From Aurantimonas marina (GTDB lineage: Bacteria; Pseudomonadota; Alphaproteobacteria; Rhizobiales; Rhizobiaceae), in the NCBI RefSeq assembly GCF_017183135.1, contig NZ_JADDXW010000021.1:1-49009 (forward strand): a DNA stretch of 49,009 bases, in the 5' to 3' direction. Each line of letters starts with the position of its first letter. The stretch's first letter is position 1. Shown in pieces: positions 4,679-26,053 of this stretch. The translations under genes were made by a program, and so were the position numbers. The notes beneath the pieces are model-generated. The model did not search any database, was not told where the DNA came from, and saw nothing but the letters and a program-made list of their open reading frames with translations.

Positions 4679-5362
4679 CTACAGCCACTTGTCGTAGTCC
4701 GACACCAGCAGATGCAGCGGGTCCTCGTCCTCCTCGATCTCGGCGAAGCGGCCGATCGGCTCGCGAAAAATGTTGTCGGTGAGATCGTCGTTGACGGTCG
4801 AAACCTCGCCGATCAGAACATCACCGCCCTCGCCCCAGAAGGCGTGCCAGCTGCCGGGAAGCAGCGTTACGCTCTCGCCGGGTGTCAGCTTGAGGATGCC
4901 GCCGGCCGGCAGCTTGCGGGTGATACCGTCGGTGACCACCGTGACGTCGGCGGATTCGTCGACCGAACCGTCCGGCGCGCTCTCGAAGAGTTCGAGCGCC
5001 AGCGTTGCGCCGCCGCGATTGATGATGTCCTCGGCCTTCACGATGTGGCGGTGCATCGGCGAGATCTGATCGTGCCGCGAGATCATGATCTTTTCGGCAT
5101 AGAGCATGCCGCGTCCGGCCTTGAGGTCGGCGCTGTCGCCGTTGCGGACGGTGAACAGGAACAGGCCGAGCCTGTCGTAATCGCCCTTGCCGTAGTCGGT
5201 GACGTCCCAGCCGAGCCGACGCTCGACGATCGCCGACAGGTCGCCTCGGCGGGCCTTCATCTCGGATGGCGAGAGATAGGCGAAGGGCGGCATGACGTAG
5301 CCGAAGGAGCGGATGAAGTCGTCGCCCTGGCGGATGATTTCGTTGACGCGCGAGCGTTTCAT
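4679..5362 (-). CDS. D-lyxose ketol-isomerase family protein (cupin)
   Basis: Predicted 227-residue metal-dependent cupin of the D-lyxose isomerase family (the YdaE/Z5688 group), which interconverts D-lyxose and D-xylulose or D-mannose and D-fructose. The metal ligands can be seen: His104 and His106 in SPMHRH, Glu111 in VKAEDI, and His173 in LPGSWHAFWGE. This gives the H-x-H-x4-E...H pattern of the family, and the length matches. The ATG at 5362 opens MKRSRVNEII. The gene follows the glycerate kinase by only 28 bp on the same strand and is probably cotranscribed with it. The pairing suggests a shared carbohydrate-breakdown role that passes through glycerate or a three-carbon acid. The true substrate cannot be read from sequence. 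Confidence 0.85.
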   Translation of the reverse strand: MKRSRVNEIIRQGDDFIRSFGYVMPPFAYLSPSEMKARRGDLSAIVERRLGWDVTDYGKGDYDRLGLFLFTVRNGDSADLKAGRGMLYAEKIMISRHDQISPMHRHIVKAEDIINRGGATLALELFESAPDGSVDESADVTVVTDGITRKLPAGGILKLTPGESVTLLPGSWHAFWGEGGDVLIGEVSTVNDDLTDNIFREPIGRFAEIEEDEDPLHLLVSDYDKWL

Positions 5363-5390
5363 AACTGGCCTCGTTTTTCTGCCGGGCCGC

Positions 5391-6677
5391 TCATCCGACG
5401 AGGATGATGCGGCAATCATTGACGTTGGTGTGGGTCGGACCGGGCACGAACAGATCGCCCAGCGCCTCGAAAAACCCGGTGGAATCATTGTCCGCAAGCG
5501 CTCGCTCGGCGTCGTGCCCGGCGTCCTTCGCCCGCGCCAGCGTGTTCGGTTCAACGAAGGCGCCGGCCGGATCGCTGGCAAGGCCGGTGCCGCCGTCGGT
5601 GCCGTCGGTGTCGCCGGACAGCGCCGCGATGCCGGGCTCGCCGTGAAGCGCGACGGCCAGCGCCAGGGCATATTCCTGGTTGGGACCGCCGCGGCCCTCG
5701 CCGCGGATCGTGACGGTCAGTTCGCCGCCGGACAGGATCGCCAGCCGCTCGCCGCGCGCCTTGGCCTCAAGGGCCAGACGGGCATGCCGGCACGCCACGT
5801 CCCGCGCCTCTCCCTCGACGTCCGCGCCAAGGCTGTGGACGGTATAGCCGAGCGCGGTCGCCGCGCTTTCGGCGGCTTCCAGCGAGGCGGCCGGCGTCGC
5901 GATGGTCCGGTAGTCGCTCGACGCGAAGATCGGATCGCCGGGCTTCGGCGACTCGTTCGCCGGGTCTTGCAGTGCCGCCTTGCACGACGGCGGCAGGTCG
6001 ATACCGCGCTTTGCGATGATCGCCCGCGCCTCGACGAGGGTCGTCGGATCGGGCACGGTCGGTCCGGAGGCGATAACGCTCGGGTCGTCGCCCGGCACAT
6101 CCGAGATCGCCAGGGTGAGGAGCCGGGCGTCGCCGCATGCGCGGGCGAGCCGGCCGCCCTTGATCCGCGACAGGTGCTTGCGCACGCAATTGATTTCGCC
6201 GATCCCGGCGCCGCTTCTCAAGAGCGCCCTGGTCACGGCCTGCTTGTCGGCGAGGCTGACGCCGACGGCCGGCAGCAGCCAGTTCGCCGAACCCCCGCCC
6301 GAGATCAGTGCGAGCACGAGATCGCCCTCGCCTGCCGCCTCGGCCAGTTCGAGAACCTTCGCGGTTGCAGCGAGTCCGTTTTCGTTGGGCAGCGGATGGC
6401 CGGCCTCGACGACGGGAATCGGCCCGGCATCCAGCGCATAACCGTCGCGGGTGACGGCGATCCCGGTCAGGCGGGAGTCGGGAACGCCGTGAATGTCACG
6501 ATAATGCGCGACGGCCGCCGCCGCCATCGACGCCGCCGCCTTGCCTGCGGCGAGGATGACGATCCTTCCGGTCGGGGGCTCCGGCAGATGGGCGGCGAGA
6601 ATGGTCGAAGGGTGCGCGACCGCCACCGCCCGCTCAAAGATCGCGGTGAGATCGTCCCGCATCCGGTTCTGGTTCAT
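5391..6677 (-). CDS. gckA: Glycerate 2-kinase, MOFRL/TtuD family
   Basis: Phosphorylates D-glycerate to 2-phosphoglycerate with ATP, feeding glyoxylate, serine-cycle or tartrate-derived carbon into glycolysis; cytosolic. The 428-residue protein shows the family pattern: an N-terminal GCK domain with VILAAGKAAASM, VEAGHPLPNENG and the ISGGGSA glycine-rich loop. Then comes LAISDVPGDDPSVIASGPTVPD, and a C-terminal MOFRL domain with GRGGPNQEYALALA and DTDGTDGGTG. Older annotation calls this family hydroxypyruvate reductase (TtuD), but kinase activity is established for class II members. The start ATG at 6677 has an AGGGACG ribosome-binding site. It heads a two-gene unit with the lyxose-isomerase-like gene and is divergent from cydA across 220 bp, which must hold both promoters. 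Confidence 0.9.
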   Translation of the reverse strand: MNQNRMRDDLTAIFERAVAVAHPSTILAAHLPEPPTGRIVILAAGKAAASMAAAAVAHYRDIHGVPDSRLTGIAVTRDGYALDAGPIPVVEAGHPLPNENGLAATAKVLELAEAAGEGDLVLALISGGGSANWLLPAVGVSLADKQAVTRALLRSGAGIGEINCVRKHLSRIKGGRLARACGDARLLTLAISDVPGDDPSVIASGPTVPDPTTLVEARAIIAKRGIDLPPSCKAALQDPANESPKPGDPIFASSDYRTIATPAASLEAAESAATALGYTVHSLGADVEGEARDVACRHARLALEAKARGERLAILSGGELTVTIRGEGRGGPNQEYALALAVALHGEPGIAALSGDTDGTDGGTGLASDPAGAFVEPNTLARAKDAGHDAERALADNDSTGFFEALGDLFVPGPTHTNVNDCRIILVG

Positions 6678-6897
6678 GTCGTCCCTGCCCGCTCAACCGA
6701 TTGCCGCCCCTATAGCAGTTGCGCCTTGGGGCTGAACAGCGGTGAAGGTGCTTGGCGAAACACGGCGTCTCGGGCACGACACGCGGAACCACGGCAGGCG
6801 AAGGGTGGCAAAAATCGTCGCAACCATCTTCTTCCGCGGTGCACGCGGCCTATGTTGGGCACACACACCGATCGCATGAACCGCCGAAGGCAGCGCC

Positions 6898-8316
6898 ATG
6901 TTCGAAGGCTTCGACCCCGTCCTTCTCGCCCGAGTCCAGTTCGGCTTCACCATCGCATTCCACATCATCTTCCCGGCCTTTTCGATCGGCCTTGCCTCCT
7001 ATCTGGCGGTACTGGAGGGATTGTGGCTGGCGACCGGCAAGCCGGTGTATATGGACACCTTCAAATACTGGGTGAAAATCTTCGCCATCAGCTTCGGCAT
7101 GGGTGTCGTGTCGGGCATCACCATGAGCTACCAGTTCGGCACCAACTGGTCGTTCTTCTCCGACAAGACCGGGCCGATCCTCGGTCCGCTGATGGGCTAC
7201 GAAGTGCTCTCGGCCTTCTTCCTGGAAGCTGGTTTCCTCGGCATCATGCTGTTCGGCCAGAAGCGCGTCGGCCCGGCATTGCATTTCGCCGCGACGTTCG
7301 TCGTTGCGCTCGGCACGGTGTTCTCGGCCTTCTGGATCCTGTCGGTCAATTCCTGGATGCATACGCCGGTCGGCTACGGAATCAATGCCGCCGGCCAGTT
7401 CATTCCGGAGGACTGGTGGGCGATCGTCTTCAACCCCTCTTTCCCTTACCGCCTCGTCCACATGGTACTGGCCGCGTATTTGACGACCGCCTTCGTCATC
7501 GGCGCGGTGGGTGCCTTCCATCTGCTGCGCGACCGCTACAACGCCAGCGCCCGGCTGATGTTCTCGATGGCGCTGTGGATGGCGACGATCGTGGCGCCGC
7601 TACAGATCATCGCCGGCGACGAGCACGGCCTCAACACGCTGGAGTACCAGCCGGCCAAGATCGCCGCGATGGAGGGTCATTTCGAGACCAACACCGACGG
7701 GCCGATGCCGCTGACCCTGTTCGGCATTCCGGACATGGAAGAGGGGCGGATGAAATACGCCGTCGACCTTCCCTATCTCGGTTCACTCATTCTGACGCGC
7801 TCACTCGATGGCACGGTCAAAGGCCTCGACGCCTTCCCACGGGAGGACTGGCCGAATTCGACTGTGGTATTCTGGTCATTCCGCACCATGGTCGCCATCG
7901 GCTTCGCCATGCTCGGAATCGGGCTGTGGTCGCTGTTTCGCCGCGTCTTCGGCTCCGTTTACGAAAGCCCCTGGCTGCAACGGGCGATGATCGTCATGGG
8001 ACCGATGGGTTTCGTCGCCGTCATCGCCGGCTGGATCACAACCGAGGTCGGCCGCCAGCCCTTCACGGTCTACGGCCTGTTGCGGACCACCGACAGCGTC
8101 GCGCCAGTCGCCGCGGAAGCCGTCGGCACGTCGCTCGTCGCCTTCATCGTCGTCTACTTCCTGTTGTTCGGCGCCGGCACCTTCTACATTCTACGGCTGA
8201 TGTCGAAGCCTCCGACGCCGTTCGAGGAGGAAACGCTCGACCATCCGACGAGAGCCGCCGGGCTGGCATCTTCACCCCATCCCGAAGGCGGGGCCACCGC
8301 AAACCCGGCCGAATAG
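6898..8316 (+). CDS. cydA: Cytochrome bd ubiquinol oxidase subunit I (cyanide-insensitive type)
   Basis: Inner-membrane quinol oxidase subunit that carries the haems and reduces O2 to water. The 472-residue sequence keeps the haem ligands: His22 (b595), His188 and Met331 (b558). It also has the proton-channel glutamates Glu102 and Glu110 and the quinol-loop Lys254/Glu259. The Q loop is short, without the long insertion of E. coli CydA, and the motif near residue 385 reads GRQPFTVYGLLRT. These features fit the cyanide-insensitive (CIO) group. Transmembrane stretches run along the whole protein, with a hydrophilic tail after residue 435. The start is ATG at 6898. cydB follows by 10 bp. The 220-bp upstream region shows no clear FNR box by eye, so oxygen control cannot be claimed. 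Confidence 0.96.
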   Translation: MFEGFDPVLLARVQFGFTIAFHIIFPAFSIGLASYLAVLEGLWLATGKPVYMDTFKYWVKIFAISFGMGVVSGITMSYQFGTNWSFFSDKTGPILGPLMGYEVLSAFFLEAGFLGIMLFGQKRVGPALHFAATFVVALGTVFSAFWILSVNSWMHTPVGYGINAAGQFIPEDWWAIVFNPSFPYRLVHMVLAAYLTTAFVIGAVGAFHLLRDRYNASARLMFSMALWMATIVAPLQIIAGDEHGLNTLEYQPAKIAAMEGHFETNTDGPMPLTLFGIPDMEEGRMKYAVDLPYLGSLILTRSLDGTVKGLDAFPREDWPNSTVVFWSFRTMVAIGFAMLGIGLWSLFRRVFGSVYESPWLQRAMIVMGPMGFVAVIAGWITTEVGRQPFTVYGLLRTTDSVAPVAAEAVGTSLVAFIVVYFLLFGAGTFYILRLMSKPPTPFEEETLDHPTRAAGLASSPHPEGGATANPAE

Positions 8317-8326
8317 GGAGACGACA

Positions 8327-9325
8327 ATGGACCTCGCGATTCTCTGGGCATTTCTCATCGCCTTTGCCGTGATCGCCTATGTCATTCTCGATGGCTTCGA
8401 CCTCGGCACCGGAATCTTATTCCCCTTGCTGCGGGAAAACGAGAACCGGGATACGGCGATGAACACCATCGCGCCGATCTGGGACGGCAACGAGACCTGG
8501 CTGGTGCTCGGCGGCGGCGGCCTGCTCGCGGTCTTTCCGCTCGCCTACGCCATCATCATGCCGGCAATCTACGCCCCTATCATCGCCATGCTGCTCGCGC
8601 TGATCTTCCGGGGGGTCGCCTTCGAATACCGGTTCAAGACGGTGCGCGGCCGCTGGCTGTGGGATGTGTCGTTCTTCATCGGTTCGTTCGTCGCGGCGCT
8701 CAGCCAGGGCGTCGCCCTGGGGACGCTCGTCCAAGGCATCGAGATATCCGGGCGCGCCTATGCCGGCGGCTGGTTCGATTGGCTGACGCCATTCTCGCTG
8801 ATGACGGGAATTGCGGTAGTCATCGGCTATACGCTGCTGGGCGCGACCTGGCTGGTGATGAAAACGGACGGGGAACTGCGCGACATCGCGCGACGCTATG
8901 CCTTTTTCGCGGGCATCAGCACGCTGGCGCTCATGGGCGCGGTCAGCTTGTGGATGCCGTTTCTGAAGGAGGAATTCTACCTGCGCTGGTTCACTTTCCC
9001 GCAGATCCTCTACGTCGCGCCGGTGCCGATCCTCACCGCCCTCGCCGCCGTGAGCCTGTTCCAGTCGCTGGCTTCCGGCAAGGACGTGCGGCCGTTCCTA
9101 TCGGCACTGGCGCTCTTCATGCTCGCCTTCGCCGGGCTCGGAATCAGCTTCTACCCGAACATCATCCCGCCCAACGTCACGATCTGGGAGGCCGCCGCGC
9201 CGAACGCCTCGATGGAATTCCTCTTGGTCGGCGCCTCGGTCCTGATCCCGATGATCCTGATCTATACCGGCTATGCCTATTGGGTGTTCCGCGGCAAGGT
9301 CCGCCCCGGCGAGGGCTACCATTGA
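8327..9325 (+). CDS. cydB: Cytochrome bd ubiquinol oxidase subunit II
   Basis: The 332-residue membrane partner of CydA, needed for haem insertion and stability of the bd oxidase. The first helix carries the family signature VILDGFDLGTGI, followed by APIWDGNETWLVLGGGGLLAVFP and FRGVAFEYRFK, all typical of CydB/CioB. Eight or more hydrophobic segments are evident and the length is normal for the CIO group. The ATG at 8327 is preceded by AGGGAG at good spacing, 10 bp after cydA, so the two are cotranscribed. The TGA stop overlaps the TTG start of a third small gene (TTGA), which indicates translational coupling. No cydCD haem/thiol exporter genes are in this window. Confidence 0.96.
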   Translation: MDLAILWAFLIAFAVIAYVILDGFDLGTGILFPLLRENENRDTAMNTIAPIWDGNETWLVLGGGGLLAVFPLAYAIIMPAIYAPIIAMLLALIFRGVAFEYRFKTVRGRWLWDVSFFIGSFVAALSQGVALGTLVQGIEISGRAYAGGWFDWLTPFSLMTGIAVVIGYTLLGATWLVMKTDGELRDIARRYAFFAGISTLALMGAVSLWMPFLKEEFYLRWFTFPQILYVAPVPILTALAAVSLFQSLASGKDVRPFLSALALFMLAFAGLGISFYPNIIPPNVTIWEAAAPNASMEFLLVGASVLIPMILIYTGYAYWVFRGKVRPGEGYH

Positions 9326-9459: not shown

Positions 9460-10950
9460 TCACACGGCCATCGCAAGCTCCGGCAGAATGTGCAGCACCA
9501 TCGCCATGTCGGCGTTGAACGCCTCGCTCTCGCGCGCCTGCGCCGCCTTGTCGGGAAGCCGCAGGATATAAGAAGGGTGGACGGTCACCAGCAATTTCGT
9601 CGCGTCGTCGAGGTCGATCAGCCGGGAGCGGGTGTCGCGAATGGTCACCGCCTTGCCGAGCAGGGCCTGCGCCGCCGTCGCGCCCAGCGCGACGATCAGC
9701 TTCGGCTTGACCAGTTCCCGCTCCAGATCCAGCCACCAGCGGCAGACCTTGATCTCTCCCATGTTCGGCTTCTGGTGGATGCGACGCTTGCCGCGCGGCA
9801 CGAATTTGAAGTGCTTCACCGCGTTGGTGACGTAGGCCTGGCGCCGGTCGATGCCGGCCGCCGCCAACGCCTGGTCGAACACCTGGCCGGCCGGACCGAC
9901 GAAAGGCTGGCCGGCCAGATCCTCCTGATCGCCGGGCTGTTCCCCGACAAAGATCACCGGCGCGTCCTGCGGCCCCTCGCCGAACACGGTCTGCGTCGCC
10001 GGCTCCCAGAGCGGGCAAGCCTTGCAATGCCGCGCCTGTTTCCGCGCGGCGGCGATACTGTCCGGTCGCGCGTCGTCCGCGCCGTTTTCCAGATCGAGAT
10101 TCGGCTCGTCATGCGTTGCCTTGGCCATGCGCTCGCGCTCCTGCCGTCTTTGATGGGAGAAACGCGGCAGCGTCGGGGCGGTTGCGAGCATCCGGCGCGA
10201 GGCTGCTTCGGCGCCTTCGATCAGCGGCCTGATCAAGGCCGTCTCGGGCATGTTGGCCCAGTATTTCTTCGGCATTTCCGCCTGCATCGCCTTCACCTTC
10301 AGCCGCGCCGGGTTGAAGATCGACGCGTAATAGGTGAGCCACAGGGCCTCCACGTCGTCGCCCTCCGGTCGCATGTCCTTCGTCGCGCCGGGCAGGAAGG
10401 TCAGATCGCTCCCGTCCCAATGGGCCGAACGTTCCGGCGTCAGGATCGTCCAGACCATGCCGGTGAAGCGCCGGGCGAAGAACGGCGCGGTCAGTTCGAC
10501 GACGTGATGAAATGGCTCGAACCAAGCGACATAGTGCATGCCGCCCTCCCCGTCCTCGACCTCGCGAAAGCGCACGAAGGCCTTCATCTTGTGGCTGTCG
10601 CGCCGCACCGCCTTTTCCATGGCAGTCGCGCGGAGAACGTCCAGATCGGAGGATATCTCGAGCAGCTTCCTTTCCGTCTGCAGTCGCCACAACAGGCGAT
10701 AGGCGAAGACGAACCGATCCGCGTTGGCGTGGCAGACGAGCTTGCGGGCGAGGTCGGGAAAGGCCTTGGAAACCGTCGGTTGCACGGCGTCGGCAAGCGC
10801 GTCGCGCAAGGGCTCGGCGAACAGGCCGGGCGCCGCGTCGCCGACGACGAAGCTCATTTCCTCGGGCGGAATGCCGAGCGCCAGCGCCGTGCGGGCGGCC
10901 TGGCGCCAACCGTCGAAATCGGCGGGAAAGGCAAGGCGGGCGAAGAACAT
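9460..10950 (-). CDS. udgX: DUF4130-UdgX fusion: uracil-DNA glycosylase X domain protein
   Basis: A 496-residue two-domain protein. Residues about 1-260 form the DUF4130 domain (TIGR03915-like), found next to or fused with UdgX. Residues about 290-496 are a uracil-DNA glycosylase of the UdgX class. Motif A reads GEQPGDQEDLAGQPFVGPAG. The class-specific loop KRRIHQKP at 388-395 contains His392, equivalent to the histidine that bonds covalently to the abasic sugar after uracil removal in Mycobacterium UdgX. Motif B is VTVHPSYILR. Cys309, Cys312 and Cys403 are candidate iron-sulfur ligands. The start ATG at 10950 lies 28 bp after the radical SAM stop, so the two genes form an operon. It is expected to act on uracil in DNA, trapping itself rather than turning over freely. 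Confidence 0.92.
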   Translation of the reverse strand: MFFARLAFPADFDGWRQAARTALALGIPPEEMSFVVGDAAPGLFAEPLRDALADAVQPTVSKAFPDLARKLVCHANADRFVFAYRLLWRLQTERKLLEISSDLDVLRATAMEKAVRRDSHKMKAFVRFREVEDGEGGMHYVAWFEPFHHVVELTAPFFARRFTGMVWTILTPERSAHWDGSDLTFLPGATKDMRPEGDDVEALWLTYYASIFNPARLKVKAMQAEMPKKYWANMPETALIRPLIEGAEAASRRMLATAPTLPRFSHQRRQERERMAKATHDEPNLDLENGADDARPDSIAAARKQARHCKACPLWEPATQTVFGEGPQDAPVIFVGEQPGDQEDLAGQPFVGPAGQVFDQALAAAGIDRRQAYVTNAVKHFKFVPRGKRRIHQKPNMGEIKVCRWWLDLERELVKPKLIVALGATAAQALLGKAVTIRDTRSRLIDLDDATKLLVTVHPSYILRLPDKAAQARESEAFNADMAMVLHILPELAMAV

Positions 10951-10978
10951 CGGAATTCGGCTCTCGTGCGTATCGAGC

Positions 10979-12223
10979 TCAGAACAACGACAATTGGGCC
11001 ATTGCCTTCTGCCTCGGTACGAATGTGGCGCGCAGGCCTTCGCTGTCCGTCGCTGCGCCCGGCGACCAGTCGAGCGCGGTAACGAACGGCCGGACCTTGA
11101 CGATCGACTGACACAGCCGGGCAACGTCGTCGAGCCGCAATGTGCGATGGCGGCGGGTCGACAGGATGCGGTTGACGGCGCGGGTGCCGAGGCCCGGCAC
11201 GCGCAACAGCATTTCCCGGTCGGCGCGATTGACGTCCACCGGGAAACGATCGCGGTTCTTGAGCGCCCAGGCGAGCTTGGGGTCGACGGCGAGATCCAGC
11301 ATCCCGCCATCGCCGCCCGAAACGATCTCGCCGCGATCGAAGCCGTAAAAGCGCATCAGCCAGTCGGCCTGATACAGGCGGTGCTCGCGCATCAGCGGCG
11401 GCTTGGCGAGCGGCAGCCGGCTGGAGGCGTCGGGGATTGGCGAAAAGGCGGAATAATAGACCCGCTTGAGGCGGTAATTGCCGTAGAGATTCTCCGACCG
11501 GCCGAGGATGGCGTCGTCGTCGGAGCCGTCGGCGCCGATGATCATCTGGGTCGACTGGCCGCCGGGCGCGAAGCGTTGCGGCTTCGTCCGGTCCTTTTTC
11601 TCGCCCTTGTGCTCCTCGATCTTCGCCCTGAGATGGCCCATCGACCGGCGGATGTCGCGCGGCTTCTTTTCCGGCGCCAATGCCTCAAGGGTCAGGTCGG
11701 TCGGCAGCTCGATATTGATTGACAGACGATCCGCGAACAGCCCGGCTTGCTCGATCAGGGCGGGCGATGCGTCGGGGATCGTCTTCAGATGGATGTAGCC
11801 GGAAAAATTCTCCTCCAGGCGCAGTTTTCTGGCGATCCGCACCATCTCCTCCATCGTGTAGTCGGAGTTGCGGATGATGCCGGAGGACAGGAACAGCCCC
11901 TCGATATAGTTGCGCTTGTAGAACTCCATCGTCAGCGTGACGACTTCCTCCACGGTGAAGCGGGCGCGGCGGACGTTGGAAGACGAGCGGTTGACGCAAT
12001 AGACGCAGTCATAGACGCAAAAATTGGTCATCAGGATTTTCAGCAGCGAGATGCAGCGCCCATCCGGCGCATAGGCATGGCAAATGCCCGATCCCTCGGT
12101 CGAGCCGATGCCCTTGCTCTTGGCGGAATCGCGCCGGGTCGAGCCGCTGGACGCGCAGGAGGCGTCGTACTTGGCGGCGTCGGAAAGGATCGCGAGCTTG
12201 TCGATGAGGGTCGTCTTGGCCAT
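10979..12223 (-). CDS. Putative DNA modification/repair radical SAM protein
   Basis: A 414-residue radical SAM enzyme of the family habitually linked to UdgX (TIGR03916-like). The cluster motif C-x3-C-x2-C is at Cys69, Cys73 and Cys76 in NFCVYDCVYC. Two further cysteines (23 and 48) lie upstream. The C-terminal part, DVNRADREMLLRVPGLGTRAVNRIL, is a helix-hairpin-helix of the kind that binds DNA without sequence preference. The partner gene downstream encodes DUF4130-UdgX, 28 bp away. Together these suggest chemistry on a DNA lesion or modified base, but no reaction is known to me for this family. The ATG at 12223 (MAKTTLIDKL) is preferred over an upstream in-frame ATG at 12328, because the conserved region begins there. 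Confidence 0.88.
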   Translation of the reverse strand: MAKTTLIDKLAILSDAAKYDASCASSGSTRRDSAKSKGIGSTEGSGICHAYAPDGRCISLLKILMTNFCVYDCVYCVNRSSSNVRRARFTVEEVVTLTMEFYKRNYIEGLFLSSGIIRNSDYTMEEMVRIARKLRLEENFSGYIHLKTIPDASPALIEQAGLFADRLSINIELPTDLTLEALAPEKKPRDIRRSMGHLRAKIEEHKGEKKDRTKPQRFAPGGQSTQMIIGADGSDDDAILGRSENLYGNYRLKRVYYSAFSPIPDASSRLPLAKPPLMREHRLYQADWLMRFYGFDRGEIVSGGDGGMLDLAVDPKLAWALKNRDRFPVDVNRADREMLLRVPGLGTRAVNRILSTRRHRTLRLDDVARLCQSIVKVRPFVTALDWSPGAATDSEGLRATFVPRQKAMAQLSLF

Positions 12224-16839: not shown

Positions 16840-18855
16840 GTGTTGTCTCGCCGATCTGAAGGCGAGCGTGTGTGGCGACGGGAAGCGAGCGACTTGCAGT
16901 ATAGGTTCCTACCCTTCGCCAAGCTGGCAATGATGGTCATCGGCTCCAGCCTGCTCGCCGCACCACCGCAACCCGCCGCAGCCTTCGATATCTTTGGTCT
17001 GACCTTCTTCGAAGACGAAAACGCAGCGTCCGATCCGGTGCTCGACCCGGTCAACTACACGGTGACGCTGACCGTTGCGCCGGCGGTGGACGACGACGGT
17101 ACCGTGGAGGAGGATCTGCGCGACGCCTCGACGCTCATCGCGGACGAAGGCGATCCGGTATCCGGTTCGCTCGGGCTGCTCTCAAAGGCGAAAACCGACC
17201 GCAAGCGGCTGGTGGCCACCCTGTTCGAGAACGCCCGCTATGACGGGTTGGTCGACATTTTCATCGAAGGCCGTGACATCGCGGATTTGCCGCCTGACGC
17301 GACCTTCGCCTCCCGGCCCGTCCCAGTGTCGATCCGCGTCCGCCCCGGCCCCTTCTACACGCTCGGCCGCGTGGCGATTTCCGCCCAAGGCGTCCCCGTC
17401 GACCCGGCGGAATACGATCTCACGTCGGGAAGTTCGGCGCGTTCCGTCGATCTGCTCAAAGGCGAAGCCAAGCTTCTCAAGGATCTCCGCGATCAAGGCC
17501 GGCCGTTCGTGGCGATCACCGGGCGCGAGATCGTCGCGGACGCCAACACCGATCGGCTCGATTATTCGATCGCCATCGCGCCCGGCAACCCGGTGCCGTT
17601 CGGCGAGACCTGGGTCGCGGGAGCCGAAGACGTCGACCCCGGCTTCATCGCCTATATGGCGGGCATCAAGGCCGACGAGGTCTTCTCCCCGGAGGAACTC
17701 GCGGCGGCGCGCGAGCGGCTGCTCAAGCTCGGCGTGTTCTCCAGCGTCACGGTGAAGGAAGCCAAGGCCCAGGCACCGGACGGAACGCTTCCCGTCCAGA
17801 TCGAGGTCGGCGAACGCAAATTCGGCTTTTACGGCATCGGCGCGACCTATTCGAATACCGAAGGCGCGGGCGCCTCGGGCTATGTCGGCCACCGCAACCT
17901 GTTCGGCCGCGCCGAGAGCATCCGGCTTGAAGCCTCGGTTTCGCGCATCGGCGCAACCGCAGTATCCAGCCAGGGACGCGAGACCGACGGCGCCGACTAC
18001 GCGGCGTCGCTGGTTTTCAAGAAGCCCGGCGTGCTGGGTCCGGACTCGGTCTATGTCGGCTCGATCGAGCTCAAGCGCGAACACCCGCTCGCCTATGATC
18101 GCGATTCCCTCGCGGTCGCCAGTGGCGTCGAATACGAGATCGACCGCAACCAGACCGTCGTCGCCACCGTCCGTGCCGAGTACGAAGAGATCACCGACTA
18201 TCTCGGAACGCGCGAGTATCTGCTGACTTCGGTGCCGATCAGCTACACCTTCGACAATCGCGACAACGAGCTCAACCCGACCGAGGGCCTGTTGGCCAAG
18301 GCGCTGGTCGAGCCCACCTACGGGTTCAACACCGAAACACCTTTCGTGAAGACCCGCATCGACGCGTCGAGCTATCTGTCGCTGTCGCAAAGCGACCGCT
18401 TCATTCTCGCCGGACGCGTCGGCTACGGGACGATCTTCGGCGCCGATCTCCTCAACATCCCCAACGATCGCCGCTTTTATGCCGGCGGTGGCGGCTCGGT
18501 GCGCGGCTACGAATTTCAGTCAGTCGGCCCGTATTTCCCTTCCGCCGCGCCCCCCGGCTCCGGATTCAACCCGGATTTCGTCGACACGCCCACCGGCGGC
18601 CTGTCGCTGTTCGAGGCATCGGCCGAGGCGCGCATCGGCGTCACGGAGAACATCCAGATCGTTCCCTTCGTCGATGTCGGAACCGTCTCCGACGACCTCG
18701 TGCCCGATTTTTCCAACTTCAAGGTCGGCGCCGGCGTCGGCGCCCGCTACATCACCAGCTTCGGCCCGATCCGCTTCGATGTGGCGATCCCGCTGGATCC
18801 AGGCCCGCGCGACGCGGACTTCCAGTTCTATGCCGGCATTGGGCAAGCCTTCTGA
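16840..18855 (+). CDS. tamA: Autotransporter assembly complex protein TamA (Omp85 family)
   Basis: An outer-membrane Omp85 barrel protein that works with TamB in outer-membrane protein or lipid transport. The 671-residue frame has a hydrophobic export segment near residues 25-50 ending PPQPAAA-FD. POTRA-type domains follow, up to about residue 330 (for example FYTLGRVAISAQG and GIKADEVFSPEELAAARERL). Then comes a C-terminal beta-barrel with alternating strands, the Omp85 motif VRGYEF near residue 550, and a terminal aromatic strand ending GIGQAF. The start is uncertain: a GTG at 16840 gives the longest form, and later GTG/TTG codons (16870, 16894) would still leave a usable signal peptide. 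The TGA stop overlaps the tamB ATG by one base, so the pair is coupled. Confidence 0.9.
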   Translation: MLSRRSEGERVWRREASDLQYRFLPFAKLAMMVIGSSLLAAPPQPAAAFDIFGLTFFEDENAASDPVLDPVNYTVTLTVAPAVDDDGTVEEDLRDASTLIADEGDPVSGSLGLLSKAKTDRKRLVATLFENARYDGLVDIFIEGRDIADLPPDATFASRPVPVSIRVRPGPFYTLGRVAISAQGVPVDPAEYDLTSGSSARSVDLLKGEAKLLKDLRDQGRPFVAITGREIVADANTDRLDYSIAIAPGNPVPFGETWVAGAEDVDPGFIAYMAGIKADEVFSPEELAAARERLLKLGVFSSVTVKEAKAQAPDGTLPVQIEVGERKFGFYGIGATYSNTEGAGASGYVGHRNLFGRAESIRLEASVSRIGATAVSSQGRETDGADYAASLVFKKPGVLGPDSVYVGSIELKREHPLAYDRDSLAVASGVEYEIDRNQTVVATVRAEYEEITDYLGTREYLLTSVPISYTFDNRDNELNPTEGLLAKALVEPTYGFNTETPFVKTRIDASSYLSLSQSDRFILAGRVGYGTIFGADLLNIPNDRRFYAGGGGSVRGYEFQSVGPYFPSAAPPGSGFNPDFVDTPTGGLSLFEASAEARIGVTENIQIVPFVDVGTVSDDLVPDFSNFKVGAGVGARYITSFGPIRFDVAIPLDPGPRDADFQFYAGIGQAF

Positions 18856-21800
18856 TGCGCAAATTCAACCCGGTCCCCCCGCTCGCCGCCACCCTCATCG
18901 TCGGCGTTTCCGCCGCCTTCCTGGCGAGCCGACCCGCCCCGGCGCAGCAGTTCATTGCCAATCAGATCGAGAACCTCGTCTCCACGGACACGATGAAGGT
19001 CGAGATCAAGGGTCTGTCCGGCGCGCTCACCGGCGACATACGGATCGAGAGCGTGATTGTCTCCGACCCCCAGGGCATTTTCCTGACGGCAAAGAACCTG
19101 GCGCTGGACTGGTCGCCGCTGGCGCTCGTGCGCTCGAACCTGTCGATCGACAACCTCACCGCCGGCCAGATCGTGCTGGAACGGTTGCCTGCCGGCCAAC
19201 CGGCCACAGCGGCGGATCAGGGCAGCAGCTTTTCGCTGCCGTCGATCACCGCCGATATCCGCAATTTCGCGATCGCGGAATTCGTGCTCGGCGAGCCGAT
19301 CGCCGGTACGCGTGCGCGGCTGAGGGCGAGCGCCCGCCTGACGCTCGCCGACGATCCGACCAAGCTCGACGTCAAGGCCAATATCGACCGGCTGGACCAG
19401 CCGGGCCAGATCGCGCTCGATGTGTCCTATGCGCCGGCGCAAAATCAGCTCGCGATCGACGTGCAAGCGAACGAGCCGGCGGGCGGGCTGGTGGCGACGC
19501 TTCTCGACATTCCGGACCGGCCAAAGGTCAATCTCGTCGTCAACGGCTCCGGGCCGCTCTCCGATTTCATGGCCAACGGCCAGCTCACCGTCGGCGGCGA
19601 ACAGGCGGCGACACTGACCGCGCGGGTCAACGACGTCGCCGACGGGCGCCGCCTCGCCGCCTCCCTCAATGTGGCGGCCGAGCGCTTCGTACCGGAACAA
19701 TATTCCCAATATGTCGCCGGCGGGGCCAGTCTCGATCTGCAAGCAGTACTGCGCGACGACGGCACCTATCTCGTCGAACAGGGCGATCTGGCCTCCGAGG
19801 CCCTGGCCTTGCAGACCAAGGGCGTTCTCGATCCAGGCGGGGCCGGCAACGATCTGACGCTCGCCGTCGCTTCGCGGGACGGCAGCCCGATTGCCCTTTC
19901 CTTCGGAACACCGCCGGACATCACCGGTCTTCAGGTCACCCGCCTCGACGGCACGGTGCGCGGAGCCTTCACCGCAGCTGCCGTGGATCTGTCGGCGAAG
20001 CTGCAGCGCGCGGGTTACGGCGACTATGTCGCGCAGGGTGTCAGCCTGGATGCCCGCAGTCCCGGCTTCGACCTTACCAACTTCAAGGGACCGCTCGCAG
20101 TCGAAACCGTAGCCCAGTCGGTCGAGGCGCCTGAGGGAATCGCCGAACGGTTTCTCAACGGCCCTGTGAAGATCGCCGCTAACGGCGCACTGACCGAGAA
20201 CGGCTTCGTCTTCGAGCCGAGCGAGGCGACCTCAGACGTCGCGACGCTGACCCTCGAAGGCACCGCCGCCCTGAATTTCGCGATCTTCGACCTGAATTTG
20301 CGCTCGCGCTTCCAGACCGCGGCGCTGTCGGCGGCGGCGATCCCGCTGACGGGCGAAGAGCTATCCGTCGCCGGCCGCTTTACCCGCGCCGCGGACGGAG
20401 CGATCAACGCGCAGAAACTCGCCATCACCGGCGCTGGGCTGCAGATCACCGGGAACGCTGGCCTGAATGGCGGCGTGCTCTCAGCTGACATTCAAGGCAC
20501 GCTGGAGGATACCCAGGCCGTTAACCCGCTGTTTTCCGGCGCGGCGGAGTTGCGGCTCGTCGCCAAGGGGCCGGTGGAAAAGCCCGACGTCGATCTGACG
20601 CTGTCCGGCAATGGCCTGTCGATCAACGGGCGCGAGCTCGCCGACCTCAAGGTCGAGATACGCGGCACGCTGAACCCCGCCTCGCCGTCCGGCTTCGTGA
20701 ACATCACCGGAACGCTGGACGGCCAGCCGCTGTCCGGTAGCGCCAAGGTCGAGACCCTCGACAATGGCGACCGTCGCATCACCGATCTGGCGATCCGGCA
20801 GGGTCCGAACGCGGTCACCGGCGATCTCATGCTCACCGAGGCCTTTGCGCCGGTCGGCACGCTGAGCGTTGCCATCGACGATATCGGCCCGTTGGCGGCG
20901 CTCGGCGGGCAGAAGGCCGCCGGCGATGTGAAGGGAACCGTCGAACTCTCGGTCGACGCCGAGAAGACGCCGATCGCCGCGCCCGATCTCACCTCCGGCA
21001 GCCTGACGGTTGCCGGCACCACACTCCAGGGCGCGCGGATCGATTTGTCGGTCAAGGACTATCTCGGGATTCCGATGCCGACAGGCCGGGTGGCCGCGGA
21101 CGCGATCGACGTCGCCGGGGTGGCGGTGCGCGGCTTGGCCCTGGCCTTCACCGAGGAGCCGGGCGGCACTGGCCTGACGGCGAATGCGACAGTCAACGAC
21201 GCGCCGGTCGAACTGGCCGGCACCGCCCAATTCGAGCCGGACGCGATGCTGCTGACGCTCTCGCGCCTGACCGCCGATATCGCCAAAGCCCCCGTCAATC
21301 TCAGCGACGAAGCCAAGGTGCGGATCGCCAACGGCAAGACGGTTCTCGACGGCTTCGTGCTGACCGTCGGTTCCGGCTCGATCGCCCTGGAAGGCTCGTC
21401 CGGCGAGGTCCTCGACCTTGGCTTGCGCCTCGACGCGGTTCCGGCAGCCGTCGCCAACCTCTTCGTCGCCGGTCTGGAGGCCGAGGGCACGATCTCCGGC
21501 ACGGCGACCCTCACCGGCGCGCCGGATAATCCCGACGCCGCCTTCGCGATCACCGGCCGCGAGCTGGCGACCGCGCAGGTGCGGGCGGCCCGGATACCGC
21601 CGATCGCGCTCGATGCGACCGGCCGCTACGTCGACGGCACACTCACGCTGCAAACCGCCAAGCTCGATCTCGGCGAGGGATCGTTGCAGGCCTCCGGCAC
21701 GATCGGCGAGACGCTGGACTTGCGGGCCGAGCTGGCGAATCTGCCGGTGGCGCTGGCGAACGACTTCGTCGACGGCCTCGACGCGTCCGGGACGATCTCC

Positions 21801-24800
21801 GGCAGCGCCGTCGTCAACGGTACCCGCGCCGACCCGGTAGCGGTTTTCGATCTTGCCGGCACCGGCATCACCGCGGCACAGGTCGCTTCGGCCGGAATCG
21901 ATCCGCTGACGCTCGATGTCGCCGGCCGCTATGCCGCAGGGACGGCGACGCTCGATCGGGCCAGTCTGGTGGTCGGCTCCGGCTCGCTCGAAGCCTCCGG
22001 CACGATCGGGGACAATCTCGACCTGACGCTGGCGATGAACGACCTGCCCGTCGCCCTCGCCAACGGTTTCGTACCCGATCTCGACGCGTCCGGGACGATT
22101 TCCGGGACGGCGACCGCGACCGGCTCGCTCACCGAGCCCAATGCGACCTTCGATCTGTCGGGCGCCGGGATCACGACGGGCGCGATCGCACGCTCAGGCG
22201 TTGCGCCGCTGCAATTGCGACTCGCCGGCAGTTTCGCCGAGGGGACGGCGTCGCTGGAAACCGCCGTGGTCAATGTCGGCGACGGCTCGCTGCGTGCTTC
22301 CGGCAAGGTGGGCCGCGAACTCGACCTCGACCTGTCGATGAACAGCGTTCCGGTCGGGCTCGCCAACGGCTTCTTACCCAACCTGAAAGCCTCCGGAACG
22401 ATCTCGGGAACCGCGACGGCGACCGGCACGCTCGACGACCCCACCGCCGAATTCTCGCTGACAGGTTCCGGCATCACCGCGCCGGCGATCGCCCAGGGCG
22501 GCATCGAGCCACTCGACGTGACAGCGTCCGGGCGCCTTGCCGACGGCACGCTGAACCTCGACGAAGCCGAGATGACCGTCGGTTCCGGTTCGCTCACCGC
22601 CAGCGGCACGGTCGGCGAGACGCTCGACCTCACCATCGTCGCCAACGAAATCCCCGTGGGGCTTGCCAACGGCTTGGTGCCGAATCTCGGCGCCACGGGC
22701 ACGATCTCGGGCACGGCCACGGCGACCGGTTCACTTTCCGACCCGCAGGCGCGTTTCGATCTCAGCGGCTCCGGCATCACGACGCGGCAGATCGCCCAGT
22801 CCGGCGTGGCGCCGCTCAGCCTCGACCTGTCCGGCTCCTACGCCAACGGAACGGCGACCATCGCCAACGCCGACGTGACGGTGGGCGACGGCTCGCTGAA
22901 GGCCACTGGCACGGTCGGCGAGGCGCTCGACCTCAAGATCGCCGTCAACCAGCTCCCCGTCGGTCTGGCGAATGGCTATGTCGAGGGGCTCGGCGTCACG
23001 GGCACGATCTCCGGTTCCGCGACGGCCACCGGTTCCATCTCCGACCCGCAAGCCGAATTCGATCTGACCGGGTCGGGCATCACGACGCGGCAGATTGCGG
23101 CCTCCGGCGTCGCGCCGCTCAGCCTCGATCTCGCCGGCGCCTATGCCAATGGGACAGCGACAATCGATACCGCCAGCGTTAAGGTCGGCAACGGTTCGCT
23201 GACGGCCACCGGCATCGTCGGGCAGACTCTCGATCTCCACCTCCAACTCGACCGGCTCCCCGTCGGTCTCGCCAATGGCTTCGTGCCGGATCTCAACGCC
23301 GAGGGAACGATCTCCGGCACCGCCACCGCGACAGGCTCCATCTCCGATCCCCGCGCCACCTTCGATCTCACCGGATCGGGCATCACCACCCGGCAGATCG
23401 CCCAATCGGGCGTCGCGCCGCTGAGCCTGCAGGCGTCCGGCATTTATGCCGACGGCACCGCAACGATCGGCACGGCCGATGTTCGGGTCGGGGCCGGCTC
23501 GCTCGTCGCGTCCGGAACGGTCGGGCGGACGCTCGATCTGGACGTCACGCTGAACCAGGTCCCGGTCGGTCTTGCCAACGGCTTCGTTAGCGGGCTCGGC
23601 GCGCAGGGGACCGTGTCGGGAACCGCGTCCGCCACCGGCTCGATTTCCAATCCCGAGGCGCGGTTCGACATCTCGGCATCCAACGTCTCGGTTGCGCAGA
23701 GCCGCGCCGCCGGCGCACCGCCGATCGACGCCAGCGCGGCGGGGACCTATGCGGGCGGGACCTTGCAGCTGCAAACGGCGACCGCCAATGTCGGCGGCGG
23801 AACGATCAACCTCAGCGGCTCCGCCAGCGCGACCGCTCTCGCCATCGACGCCGATATCCGCAACCTGCCGGCCTCGATCGCCGCCGCGGCGGCCCCCGGA
23901 ATCGCGCCGCAGGGAACGATCAATGGAACCGTTCGCACGTCCGGGTCTCCCTCCAATCCGTCGGTCACCTACGACCTCAGCGGCTCCGGTCTTTCCATCC
24001 AGCAGACACGCGACGCCGGCGTCGGCGCGCTCGCCGTCTCCGCCAACGGCCAGTTCGCGAACAGAATCGTTACGACGACGGCCAATCTGTCCGGCAGCGG
24101 CGTCGATTTGGCGGTTTCCGGCTCGGTCAATATCGCCGGCACGCCGCAGCTCGACTTGGCAGTGAATGGCACCGCGCCGATGTCGCTCGCCAACCGTATC
24201 CTCGCCGACGGCGGCCGCTCGATCCAGGGCGACGTGCAGTTGAACGCGCGCGTGACCGGCCCAGCCAGCCAACCAAACGTCGTGGGAACCCTCTCGACAT
24301 CCGGCGCAAGCTTCGTCGACACGGGCCTGAACCTCGCGATCAACAACATCGCGGCGACGGTCGCCCTCAACGGCCAGACGGCGACGATCCAGTCCTTCAA
24401 TGCGGCCCTCTCCTCCGGCGGAACGCTCTCGATCTCCGGGTCCGTCGGTCTCAACGACGGGTTTCCGGCCGATATCGCGATCCGGCTCGTCGACGGTCGC
24501 TATAATGACGGCGAACTCGTCGCCGCGAAGCTGAACGCCGAGCTGACACTGACCGGCCCACTGGGCGGCACACCGCTGCTCGCCGGGACCGTCAACGCCA
24601 ACGAAATCAACGTCCTGATTCCAGACAAACTGCCGGGTTCTCTGGCCAGGATCGACGTGACCCATCGCAACGCCAAGCCGGCCGTCTACGAGCAGCAGCG
24701 CGAAATCAACCCTAACCAGGGCGCCGGCACTCAGCGCAGCGGGATCAATTTCGACCTGACCTTCAACGCGCCCTCGCGGGTGTTCGTGCGCGGTCGCGGC

Positions 24801-25427
24801 CTCGACGTTGAACTCGGCGGTTCGATCGTCATCACCGGCTCGGCCGCGGCGCCGCGTATCGTCGGTGGATTCGAATTGCAGCGCGGTCGGTTCGTGATCC
24901 TCGGCAAGCGCCTCGACTTCGATCGTGGCCGGCTGACCTTCACTGGCAGCCTGGTTCCGGTCCTCGACCTGGTCGCCAGGTCTGAGGCGGGCGATACCAC
25001 GGTGTTCATCGCCGTGACCGGCCCCGCCAACGATCCGAGCTTCACCTTTTCCTCGACCCCCCTCCTGCCCCAGGACGAGGTGCTGGCGCGACTGATCTTC
25101 AATCAAGGCACGTCGGATCTTTCGCCGCTGCAGATCGCCCAGCTCGCCGAACTCGCCGCATCGCTCGCCGGCATTGGCGGGTCGAGCGGCCTCCTCGACA
25201 ATCTGCGCTCGCAGATCGGCGTCGACGACCTGGACATCAAGACGACGAAAGACGGCCAGACGGCCGTCGGCGTCGGCAAATATCTCAACGAGAACACCTA
25301 TCTCGGCGTCGATTCGACCGGACGTGTGGCGATCGACCTCGATCTCGGCTCCGGGCTCAAGGCGCGTGGCGCGGTCACAGCGGAAGGTGGCGGCGAGGTC
25401 GGCGTCTTCTACGAAGGCGAGTTCTGA
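18855..25427 (+). CDS. tamB: Translocation and assembly module protein TamB, with internal tandem repeats
   Basis: A very large (2190 residues) AsmA-like, inner-membrane-anchored periplasmic protein that spans to TamA and is thought to guide lipids or outer-membrane proteins along a hydrophobic beta-taco groove. An N-terminal anchor (PPLAATLIVGVSAAFL) comes first, then long stretches of alternating beta pattern. The C-terminal DUF490/TamB domain occupies roughly residues 1830-2190, with FDLTFNAPSRVFVRGRGLD and the closing GVFYEGEF. Residues 878-1686 consist of eight repeat units of 101 residues, each opening with a GTISGTATATGS-like motif and holding GLANGFV and GITTRQIAQSGVAPL-like segments. 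It is clearly longer than usual alphaproteobacterial TamB, and the repeat block accounts for the excess. Start: ATG at 18855 overlapping the tamA stop. Confidence 0.93.
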   Translation: MRKFNPVPPLAATLIVGVSAAFLASRPAPAQQFIANQIENLVSTDTMKVEIKGLSGALTGDIRIESVIVSDPQGIFLTAKNLALDWSPLALVRSNLSIDNLTAGQIVLERLPAGQPATAADQGSSFSLPSITADIRNFAIAEFVLGEPIAGTRARLRASARLTLADDPTKLDVKANIDRLDQPGQIALDVSYAPAQNQLAIDVQANEPAGGLVATLLDIPDRPKVNLVVNGSGPLSDFMANGQLTVGGEQAATLTARVNDVADGRRLAASLNVAAERFVPEQYSQYVAGGASLDLQAVLRDDGTYLVEQGDLASEALALQTKGVLDPGGAGNDLTLAVASRDGSPIALSFGTPPDITGLQVTRLDGTVRGAFTAAAVDLSAKLQRAGYGDYVAQGVSLDARSPGFDLTNFKGPLAVETVAQSVEAPEGIAERFLNGPVKIAANGALTENGFVFEPSEATSDVATLTLEGTAALNFAIFDLNLRSRFQTAALSAAAIPLTGEELSVAGRFTRAADGAINAQKLAITGAGLQITGNAGLNGGVLSADIQGTLEDTQAVNPLFSGAAELRLVAKGPVEKPDVDLTLSGNGLSINGRELADLKVEIRGTLNPASPSGFVNITGTLDGQPLSGSAKVETLDNGDRRITDLAIRQGPNAVTGDLMLTEAFAPVGTLSVAIDDIGPLAALGGQKAAGDVKGTVELSVDAEKTPIAAPDLTSGSLTVAGTTLQGARIDLSVKDYLGIPMPTGRVAADAIDVAGVAVRGLALAFTEEPGGTGLTANATVNDAPVELAGTAQFEPDAMLLTLSRLTADIAKAPVNLSDEAKVRIANGKTVLDGFVLTVGSGSIALEGSSGEVLDLGLRLDAVPAAVANLFVAGLEAEGTISGTATLTGAPDNPDAAFAITGRELATAQVRAARIPPIALDATGRYVDGTLTLQTAKLDLGEGSLQASGTIGETLDLRAELANLPVALANDFVDGLDASGTISGSAVVNGTRADPVAVFDLAGTGITAAQVASAGIDPLTLDVAGRYAAGTATLDRASLVVGSGSLEASGTIGDNLDLTLAMNDLPVALANGFVPDLDASGTISGTATATGSLTEPNATFDLSGAGITTGAIARSGVAPLQLRLAGSFAEGTASLETAVVNVGDGSLRASGKVGRELDLDLSMNSVPVGLANGFLPNLKASGTISGTATATGTLDDPTAEFSLTGSGITAPAIAQGGIEPLDVTASGRLADGTLNLDEAEMTVGSGSLTASGTVGETLDLTIVANEIPVGLANGLVPNLGATGTISGTATATGSLSDPQARFDLSGSGITTRQIAQSGVAPLSLDLSGSYANGTATIANADVTVGDGSLKATGTVGEALDLKIAVNQLPVGLANGYVEGLGVTGTISGSATATGSISDPQAEFDLTGSGITTRQIAASGVAPLSLDLAGAYANGTATIDTASVKVGNGSLTATGIVGQTLDLHLQLDRLPVGLANGFVPDLNAEGTISGTATATGSISDPRATFDLTGSGITTRQIAQSGVAPLSLQASGIYADGTATIGTADVRVGAGSLVASGTVGRTLDLDVTLNQVPVGLANGFVSGLGAQGTVSGTASATGSISNPEARFDISASNVSVAQSRAAGAPPIDASAAGTYAGGTLQLQTATANVGGGTINLSGSASATALAIDADIRNLPASIAAAAAPGIAPQGTINGTVRTSGSPSNPSVTYDLSGSGLSIQQTRDAGVGALAVSANGQFANRIVTTTANLSGSGVDLAVSGSVNIAGTPQLDLAVNGTAPMSLANRILADGGRSIQGDVQLNARVTGPASQPNVVGTLSTSGASFVDTGLNLAINNIAATVALNGQTATIQSFNAALSSGGTLSISGSVGLNDGFPADIAIRLVDGRYNDGELVAAKLNAELTLTGPLGGTPLLAGTVNANEINVLIPDKLPGSLARIDVTHRNAKPAVYEQQREINPNQGAGTQRSGINFDLTFNAPSRVFVRGRGLDVELGGSIVITGSAAAPRIVGGFELQRGRFVILGKRLDFDRGRLTFTGSLVPVLDLVARSEAGDTTVFIAVTGPANDPSFTFSSTPLLPQDEVLARLIFNQGTSDLSPLQIAQLAELAASLAGIGGSSGLLDNLRSQIGVDDLDIKTTKDGQTAVGVGKYLNENTYLGVDSTGRVAIDLDLGSGLKARGAVTAEGGGEVGVFYEGEF
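21486..23912 (+). repeat. Eight tandem 303-bp repeats inside tamB
   Basis: Units begin (at the GTISG-like motif) at 21486, 21789, 22092, 22395, 22698, 23001, 23304 and 23607. Seven consecutive spacings are exactly 303 bp; the next similar motif begins at 23913, 306 bp on. The first units are diverged, while the 22698, 23001 and 23304 units are closest to each other (shared ITTRQIA and SGVAPLSL). Frame is kept throughout, with no indel between the eight unit starts, which implies a strict structural register of 101 residues. Confidence 0.93.
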
Positions 25428-25504
25428 CCGCCCGAGCCCGCCAGGACGAATGCCGCAATGGAGTGCTTGAGGCGGCGCGCCTGAGACGAATGCCGATTTT
25501 TTCC

Positions 25505-25529
25505 TGAACCTTCCGGGAGTCTGCCCGTT
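25505..25529 (+). promoter_or_regulatory. Candidate EcfG-type (general stress sigma factor) promoter
   Basis: TGAAC (25505-25509), 16 bases, then CGTT (25526-25529). The alphaproteobacterial EcfG consensus is GGAAC-N16/17-CGTT, so this matches eight of nine conserved bases. It lies 72 bases before the start of the small conserved protein, a sensible leader length. One mismatch in a short motif means it could be chance. Confidence 0.35.
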
Positions 25530-25601
25530 CACCGGAGACTCCGAACGCACCGCCTCTCGCGGCGGGCGATCATGGCAAGTGCGATCAGCGGGAGAACCGA
25601 G

Positions 25602-25829
25602 ATGATGTATTCCAGCAAATTCGACCATCCCAAGCATGGCAGTTATCCAAATCCCGAGGCGGTGCTGAAGGACGACAATCTGTCGGAGTCGGAAAAGCAG
25701 ACCGTGCTCAAGGAGTGGGCCGACTCGCTCAAGCATATCCTCCACAACGAACCGGACGCGTCCGAGGTAAAGGCGACCAAGCAGTCGCTGGACGAAGCGA
25801 CCGAAAGGCTCGCATCCGGTCGCACCTGA
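25602..25829 (+). CDS. Small conserved hypothetical protein (75 residues)
   Basis: A short, acidic, helical cytosolic protein with no transmembrane part. It starts MMYSSKFDHPKHGSYPNPE and continues with LSESEKQTVLKEWADSLKHIL, a pattern I associate with small rhizobial proteins of unknown function that carry a 'seekxxxLkxWexdl' helix. The ATG at 25602 is chosen because GGAG lies 7 bases before it; an in-frame ATG at 25572 would add ten residues but has no such site. It stands alone between tamB and the aldehyde dehydrogenase. A possible EcfG promoter upstream hints at stress induction. I do not recognise a function. Confidence 0.75.
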   Translation: MMYSSKFDHPKHGSYPNPEAVLKDDNLSESEKQTVLKEWADSLKHILHNEPDASEVKATKQSLDEATERLASGRT

Positions 25830-26053
25830 CCCGTGCCGACATGACAAAGACGCCAGCGATCGGATGGTATTCAGCCTGAAGGGATGGTGCCGCCCGGGCT
25901 TGCAATCTGCGCTAGAGCGGCATCCGCGGGTACCGTGTGAGCGCACCGGGTGCCCAGGGCGCTTCCGGGATTTCGCTTCACAACCCAGTTTGCACTCGTG
26001 CGATAAGCGTCGCATGAAGGCGGGACACGGAAGAAAAGAAGAGGGGGCTGATC

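Follow-up and report, generated by a model that had tools for sequence, protein, structure and literature searches.

In Escherichia coli, TamB is a 1259-aa protein of the AsmA-like family and a component of the TAM complex, in which it would be the inner-membrane-side partner. Papers that are drawn on here in part describe TamB as a groove protein with lipid-like density in cryo-electron microscopy (PMC12800296), as redundant with YhdP and YdbH in phospholipid transport (PMC8912898; PMC10665443) and, in Brucella, as required for envelope integrity (PMC6377625). MapB, the TamB of the alphaproteobacterium Brucella suis, is encoded downstream of a TamA gene, has a SignalP signal at residues 1-21, and was recovered with the protoplast fraction and considered to be associated with the inner membrane; it is 1579 aa long, and the part of that source used here describes no repeat array (PMC6377625). 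In sources likewise used in part, Heinz et al. reported that TamB length is fairly constant, with few very long exceptions (PMC4494059), and Levine described central duplications in VPS13 and its kin (PMC7613979). No paper on repeat arrays in TamB was found among the open-access papers searched, a coverage that mostly leaves out subscription papers and preprints. Bacterial tandem-repeat surface proteins, which are mostly surface adhesins, change copy number by recombination between in-frame units; unlike them, TamB is a periplasmic bridge. Here we analysed a 49,009-nt stretch of Aurantimonas marina (NCBI RefSeq GCF_017183135.1, contig NZ_JADDXW010000021.1; the whole stretch is called the window below), which carries a tamB gene (18855..25427, + strand) for a protein of 2190 residues, the length given in the original prediction made from the letters alone. 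We consider it probable that this TamB, a presumed lipid-transfer bridge, was lengthened in its central beta-groove by tandem copying of a module.

The window protein shares with E. coli TamB the C-terminal PF04357 domain, an adjoining TamA-type gene and an elongated middle that is predicted to be beta-rich. Unlike E. coli TamB, it contains eight recognisable units of 101 aa and starts with an N-terminus that looks like a cleavable signal peptide, not a signal anchor. The units lie on the + strand at 21453..21755 (unit 1), 21756..22058 (unit 2), 22059..22361 (unit 3), 22362..22664 (unit 4), 22665..22967 (unit 5), 22968..23270 (unit 6), 23271..23573 (unit 7) and 23574..23876 (unit 8). Units 5-7 form the zone in which eight-unit and seven-unit congeners differ; unit 8, the most diverged of the eight, corresponds by position to unit 7 of the seven-unit congeners. 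A repeat search found a 65-nt stretch in eight copies, spaced 303 bp seven times consecutively from 21453 to 23638, and Tandem Repeats Finder reported a period of 303 with 0% indels over 22599-23428. Furthermore, a profile of all eight units gave eight full matches, from residues 867-967 through 1574-1673, at 117-152 bits each. The eight in-register units without an indel that the original prediction had proposed were thus confirmed, and the array is the one it had placed at 21486-23912, in a different phase (21453-23876). The array is preceded by a degenerate unit (residues 774-865; 21174..21449, +; 19 bits against the unit profile) and followed by a diverged one (residues 1681-1759; 23895..24131, +; 39 bits) that falls outside the main 101-aa clade in the unit tree.

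Ungapped pairwise identity was 43-75% among units 1-7 and 36-44% between unit 8 and the rest. Over all unit pairs, divergence was 0.36, 0.29 and 0.52 at the first, second and third codon positions; therefore, the copies are held under protein-level constraint. By autocorrelation, 754 residues of the window TamB were self-similar at offset 101, while the same analysis of 30 TamB frames of 1296-1458 aa (L083-L112) gave none in 26 and 52-85 residues, at offsets of 93-106, in the other four. Two further Aurantimonas genomes carry the identical layout of eight 101-aa units, so the array is not an assembly artefact of the window contig.

All eight genomes of Aurantimonas, sampled at one per species, carry TamB, with eight units (2190 aa) in three genomes and seven units (2084-2091 aa) in five. 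The best match of units 2, 3, 4 and the last was the positional counterpart in the other species, above the neighbouring units; unit 1 had an ambiguous counterpart, and units 5-7 of the eight-unit species were about as similar to unit 5 of the seven-unit species as to unit 6. Since units 2, 3, 4 and the last are positional orthologues, most of the array predates the genus, and it is within units 5-7 that the number has changed. Seven and eight strong units both occur at named Jiella and Fulvimarina loci, so that gain and loss of a unit in Aurantimonas are not distinguishable. The original prediction had suggested that copy number may vary between strains, and had named as signs of an ancient, fixed array a constant number and units no closer to each other than to their orthologues. 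Between related species the number is not fixed, being seven or eight in Aurantimonas and one or six to ten in Rhizobium, whereas the second sign was seen in the positional orthologues of Aurantimonas.

Direct support for how an array grows came from Rhizobium. Unequal crossing-over predicts a new unit with its 5' part from the downstream neighbour and its 3' part from the upstream neighbour. R. leguminosarum Vaf-46 (L144) has nine units, and its candidate hybrids were compared with units 3 and 2 of R. johnstonii 3841 (L181, seven units) as parents. In unit 3 of L144, 38 of 42 diagnostic sites ahead of nt 185-192 followed the downstream parent, compared to 4 of 38 beyond that point (0/2000 permutations), and unit 4 had the same pattern (38/41, then 3/38). 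L184 appears to be the same genome as L144 and not a second case. In a ten-unit array on a 4.3 Mb contig (L183), with the array's own units as parents, units 3, 5 and 6 were downstream-like at 30-32 of 32 sites and then at 0-1 of 62, unit 4 was a longer mosaic (28/28, then 17/62), and units 3 and 6 were 100% identical over 321 nt. A third array (L182) gave a weaker hybrid signal in three units. In addition, the extra unit of the eight-unit Rhizobium species, unit 3, showed the same polarity in all seven species tested (0-9/2000 permutations; L161, L186 and L187, also with eight units, were left out); the controls gave 128-1950/2000 for units 2 and 4 in those seven species and 1459/2000 for unit 5 of L144. 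Over 700 codons ahead of the array, L181 and R. sophorae (L163) share 97% nucleotide identity; they carry seven and eight units, respectively. Because each extra unit combines the sequences of its neighbours with the polarity expected from misaligned crossing-over, these results directly support the view that the extra Rhizobium units grew by unequal recombination of whole units, the mode of growth proposed in the original prediction. Unequal homologous recombination may have built the Aurantimonas array as well.

Elsewhere in the order, the copy number of TamB units ranged from 1 to 12. Within the GTDB family we compared 102 TamBs, 8 from Aurantimonas and 94 others at roughly one per genus; the 94 were taken from 138 family genomes with a TamB match (151 searched), with second members and frames truncated at contig ends excluded. 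One unit was chained in 38 of them, two in 30, three in 10 and four to ten in 23, and the remaining row (L067) scored 0 units because the wrong frame had been taken. This count used a threshold of at least 20 bits and included diverged flanking units, and the window scores 9 on it. Among 150 genomes of the order, a unit match at E <= 0.001 occurred once or more in 74 and five or more times in nine. One order genome (G282) had nine unit matches in total in two frames of 1829 and 969 aa on contigs C38 and C39, and perhaps has two array proteins. In a genus of another family (g142; 13 genomes, E <= 1e-6), four units were found in three genomes, six in two, nine in two, 10 in one, 11 in four and 12 in one. 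Eight stretches on viral contigs fitted a pattern, and none was confirmed as a relative.

Among 90 genomes of Rhizobium (E <= 1e-10), 29 had one match, in which weaker units could have escaped detection, 61 had 6-10 matches and none had 2-5. The array genomes comprised one with six units, 36 with seven, 19 with eight, three with nine and two with 10. Three Rhizobium arrays were broken in the assemblies, two by contig ends (G307, G358) and one by a frameshift (G374). This frameshift, which may mark a pseudogene, an error in sequencing or a genuine switch, divides an array with nine unit matches (L185) between two frames, of 1028 and 1172 aa. The bimodal counts suggest either that an established array has a minimum number of units or simply that the arrays go back to a single founding event. 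They bear on a reading that we regard as quite possible, though short of probable: once two similar in-frame units were present, recombination would add and remove units as a neutral ratchet, the strand plan would tolerate it, and the number would have no function. Near relatives do differ in unit number, and the changes are confined to one slot, which is the unit 2/3 region in Rhizobium and units 5-7 in Aurantimonas, with the end units remaining positional orthologues, as such a process would have it. However, a lower bound would speak against an array free to drift. Gaps are also rarer in the array than in the N-terminal part at equal divergence: in 12 eight-unit proteins, gap runs per 1000 aligned residues were 0.81 in the array (mean identity 0.64), 2.94 in the N-terminus (0.62; slightly inflated, as L118 was trimmed at the wrong motif) and 1.88 in the C-terminus (0.73). 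In our main reading, copy number would be tolerated within bounds.

The length of the unit differed between lineages. Arrays of 101-aa units were found in Aurantimonas, Jiella, Fulvimarina, Mangrovicella, Aureimonas and Consotaella, those of g142 have a period near 102, those of Rhizobium have 107-aa units, spacings in Neorhizobium arrays are 105-109, and three-unit TamBs with a period of 103 or 105 aa also exist (L062, L054). The 101-aa and 107-aa units align without gaps except for one six-residue insertion in the hairpin of strands 5 and 6 and a one-residue shift in unit 8. All units within an array share the same insertion state, which therefore fits the copying of a founder unit. We read the period as the length of that founder, copied into every unit, and not as a universal constant. 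In the original prediction, the unbroken spacing had been taken to reflect a strict structural period, in which selection would hold each segment at exactly 101 residues. We regard this as very improbable: eight-unit relatives have no indel inside units beyond compensated shifts, but sister lineages share the predicted strand plan at 102, 103, 105 or 107 residues, and Neorhizobium varies from 105 to 109. A strict period of 101 is contradicted as a general rule and could hold only within the Aurantimonas-type clade. The 101-residue period would have been copied unit by unit from the founder and maintained by selection on the strand plan, not by a fixed geometry.

Trees were consistent with more than one origin of the arrays. 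A tree of the C-terminal domain placed an Aurantimonas-type group (26 rows, support 100) apart from a Rhizobium group (6 rows, 100). In a tree of 107 units, all 20 Rhizobium units fell in one clade (Shimodaira-Hasegawa-like approximate likelihood ratio test, 95), as did all 16 units of g142 (98) and 27 of the 32 Aurantimonas-type units, together with one long-branch stray (100); the other five Aurantimonas-type units are diverged last units and were placed elsewhere. This unit tree, which has few columns and many unresolved forks, supports separate amplifications in several lineages.

To the sequence data we added structure models. AlphaFold2 with 24 aligned sequences gave a model of residues 760-1880 of the window TamB with a mean pLDDT (predicted local distance difference test) of 88.7, a pTM (predicted template modelling score) of 0.47 and no residue below 50 in pLDDT. 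Six strands and two short helices were predicted at equivalent places in all eight units; the equal strand number per unit that the original prediction had offered as a check was therefore found. The array of L181 was modelled with a pLDDT of 83.3 and a pTM of 0.51, and its element list has the six-strand plan in seven of seven units. Over the predicted strands, the hydropathy alternation of residues was 2.25 compared to 1.36 +/- 0.13 in shuffles (0/500). From these models we infer that the units form one long, continuous amphipathic groove: the module copied would consist of six beta-strands and two short helices, and successive modules would stack into that groove. No solved relative was found by sequence at E <= 0.1, and a profile search gave one chance match at 0.36.

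A close parallel lies in the RBG (repeating beta-groove) proteins, VPS13 and its kin, whose groove also grew by duplication of central modules with the ends unchanged, according to the part of the source used here (PMC7613979). An RBG module comprises five strands plus a loop, whereas the window units are predicted to have six strands and two short helices; by its predicted structure, the window TamB is like an RBG protein and is not filed as one. The two also differ in age and number of events: the VPS13 duplications are given in that source as older than the last eukaryotic common ancestor or as single events of about 500 residues (PMC7613979), while some TamB units here are 100% identical over 321 nt and their number varies within a genus.

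Several points weigh against lengthening by recombination of modules into one groove. In the hybrid test, control unit 2 of L144 reached 61/2000; the eight-unit Rhizobium species share ancestry, so that their seven tests are not independent; and gene conversion could contribute to the hybrid units. A protein-level hybrid test in Aurantimonas had a lowest value of 31/1000 in 27 tests, and unequal recombination was not resolvable there. The structure, including the pairing of strands from unit to unit that a continuous groove would need, is a prediction at the pTM values given above. The best Foldseek matches in the PDB were ApoB-100 and then LptD, with a significant E-value but a TM-score of at most 0.21, and they carry no information on membership.

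We then considered what the extra length means for the envelope. E. coli TamB has been modelled at 17.8 nm, or 24.6 nm when stretched, in a paper used here in part (PMC11014939). Scaled by residue count, the window TamB would be about 31-43 nm long and each 101-aa unit would add 1.4-2.0 nm. As TamB is thought to span the envelope, the protein might act as a ruler, with a wider periplasm in these bacteria and a unit number selected to match it; we find this improbable. Other envelope bridges would be expected to be longer if the envelope were wider. In 20 genomes, compared by stop-to-stop frames, the longest AsmA-family frame averaged 1312 aa (range 1246-1370) in 11 array genomes and 1286 aa (1234-1375) in nine with one or two units, a mean difference of 26 residues compared to about 700 in TamB. 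The AsmA-like protein is not longer by hundreds of residues and hence gives no hint of a wider envelope and no support for one as the cause of the long TamB. The original prediction had also proposed that a change in repeat number would alter the reach of TamB across the periplasm, and this proposal likewise gained no support from the AsmA-like protein. Furthermore, the close pair of Rhizobium species described above differs by one unit, and the scaled 31-43 nm exceeds a periplasm of 24 nm such as that of Veillonella, a value from a source used in part (PMC10665443). In our main reading, the extra length of TamB would be absorbed as coil or bend and not by a wider periplasm.

The locus itself is of the tamA-tamB type. 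The gene upstream (16840..18855, +) encodes a 671-aa Omp85/TamA-type outer membrane protein (Pfam Omp85 4.8e-51, POTRA 2e-4), which scores under the NCBIfam BamA and TamA equivalog cut-offs, and its stop shares one base with the start of tamB in a TGATG junction. The sole Pfam domain detected in TamB is the conserved C-terminal PF04357 (former DUF490; residues 1847-2190, 8.2e-57; 24393..25424, +). Against the NCBIfam equivalog ATportTamB, a model of 1240 positions, the protein matched mainly in its C-terminal part and scored 222 bits with a cut-off of 825. The window protein is thus classed by sequence as TamB from its Pfam domain and its TamA neighbour, and not as an ATportTamB equivalog.

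At the other end, residues 1-31 (18855..18947, +) consist of a short hydrophobic stretch followed by A-x-A before Q, and A28, A30 and Q31 do not vary among the 18 array TamBs that were aligned. The N-terminus of the Aurantimonas TamB looks more like a cleavable signal peptide than a signal anchor, and part of the family may have a TamB without an inner-membrane anchor. An anchor-like N-terminal helix was observed elsewhere in the family, for example in L101, L110 and Rhizobium TamBs. Judged by eye, a link between the array and loss of the anchor is not a rule, as Rhizobium arrays retain an anchor-like N-terminus, and it is also contradicted by many short TamBs of the signal-peptide type, which were not counted. 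An antisense open frame of 1094 aa (22731-26015, -) spans the tamB array and the 3' end of tamB and is probably a by-product of GC-rich, constrained codons. Elsewhere in the window, one protein (9460-11310, -) combines a DUF4130 domain with a uracil-DNA-glycosylase domain, and a 1019-aa open frame (5313-8372, +) has no Pfam match at 1e-5.

How the length of a lipid bridge evolves and what it does are still open questions, and the eukaryotic duplications are ancient or few. In the arrays described here, the growth of an envelope protein by unequal crossing-over of its modules can be read clearly from sequence, with the caution that an exact repeat period can reflect founder inheritance and not geometry. 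They also form a natural series of 1 to 12 modules in cultivable relatives, including Rhizobium species that are one recent unit apart, which allows bridge length to be compared with periplasm width and lipid flow in living cells. More speculatively, and in our view rather unlikely, copy number could be a live, evolvable dial, with recombination in populations yielding varied groove lengths by which Rhizobiales lineages would repeatedly have tuned lipid flow or envelope mechanics. If that were true, the length of the bridge would change by one six-strand module per recombination step.

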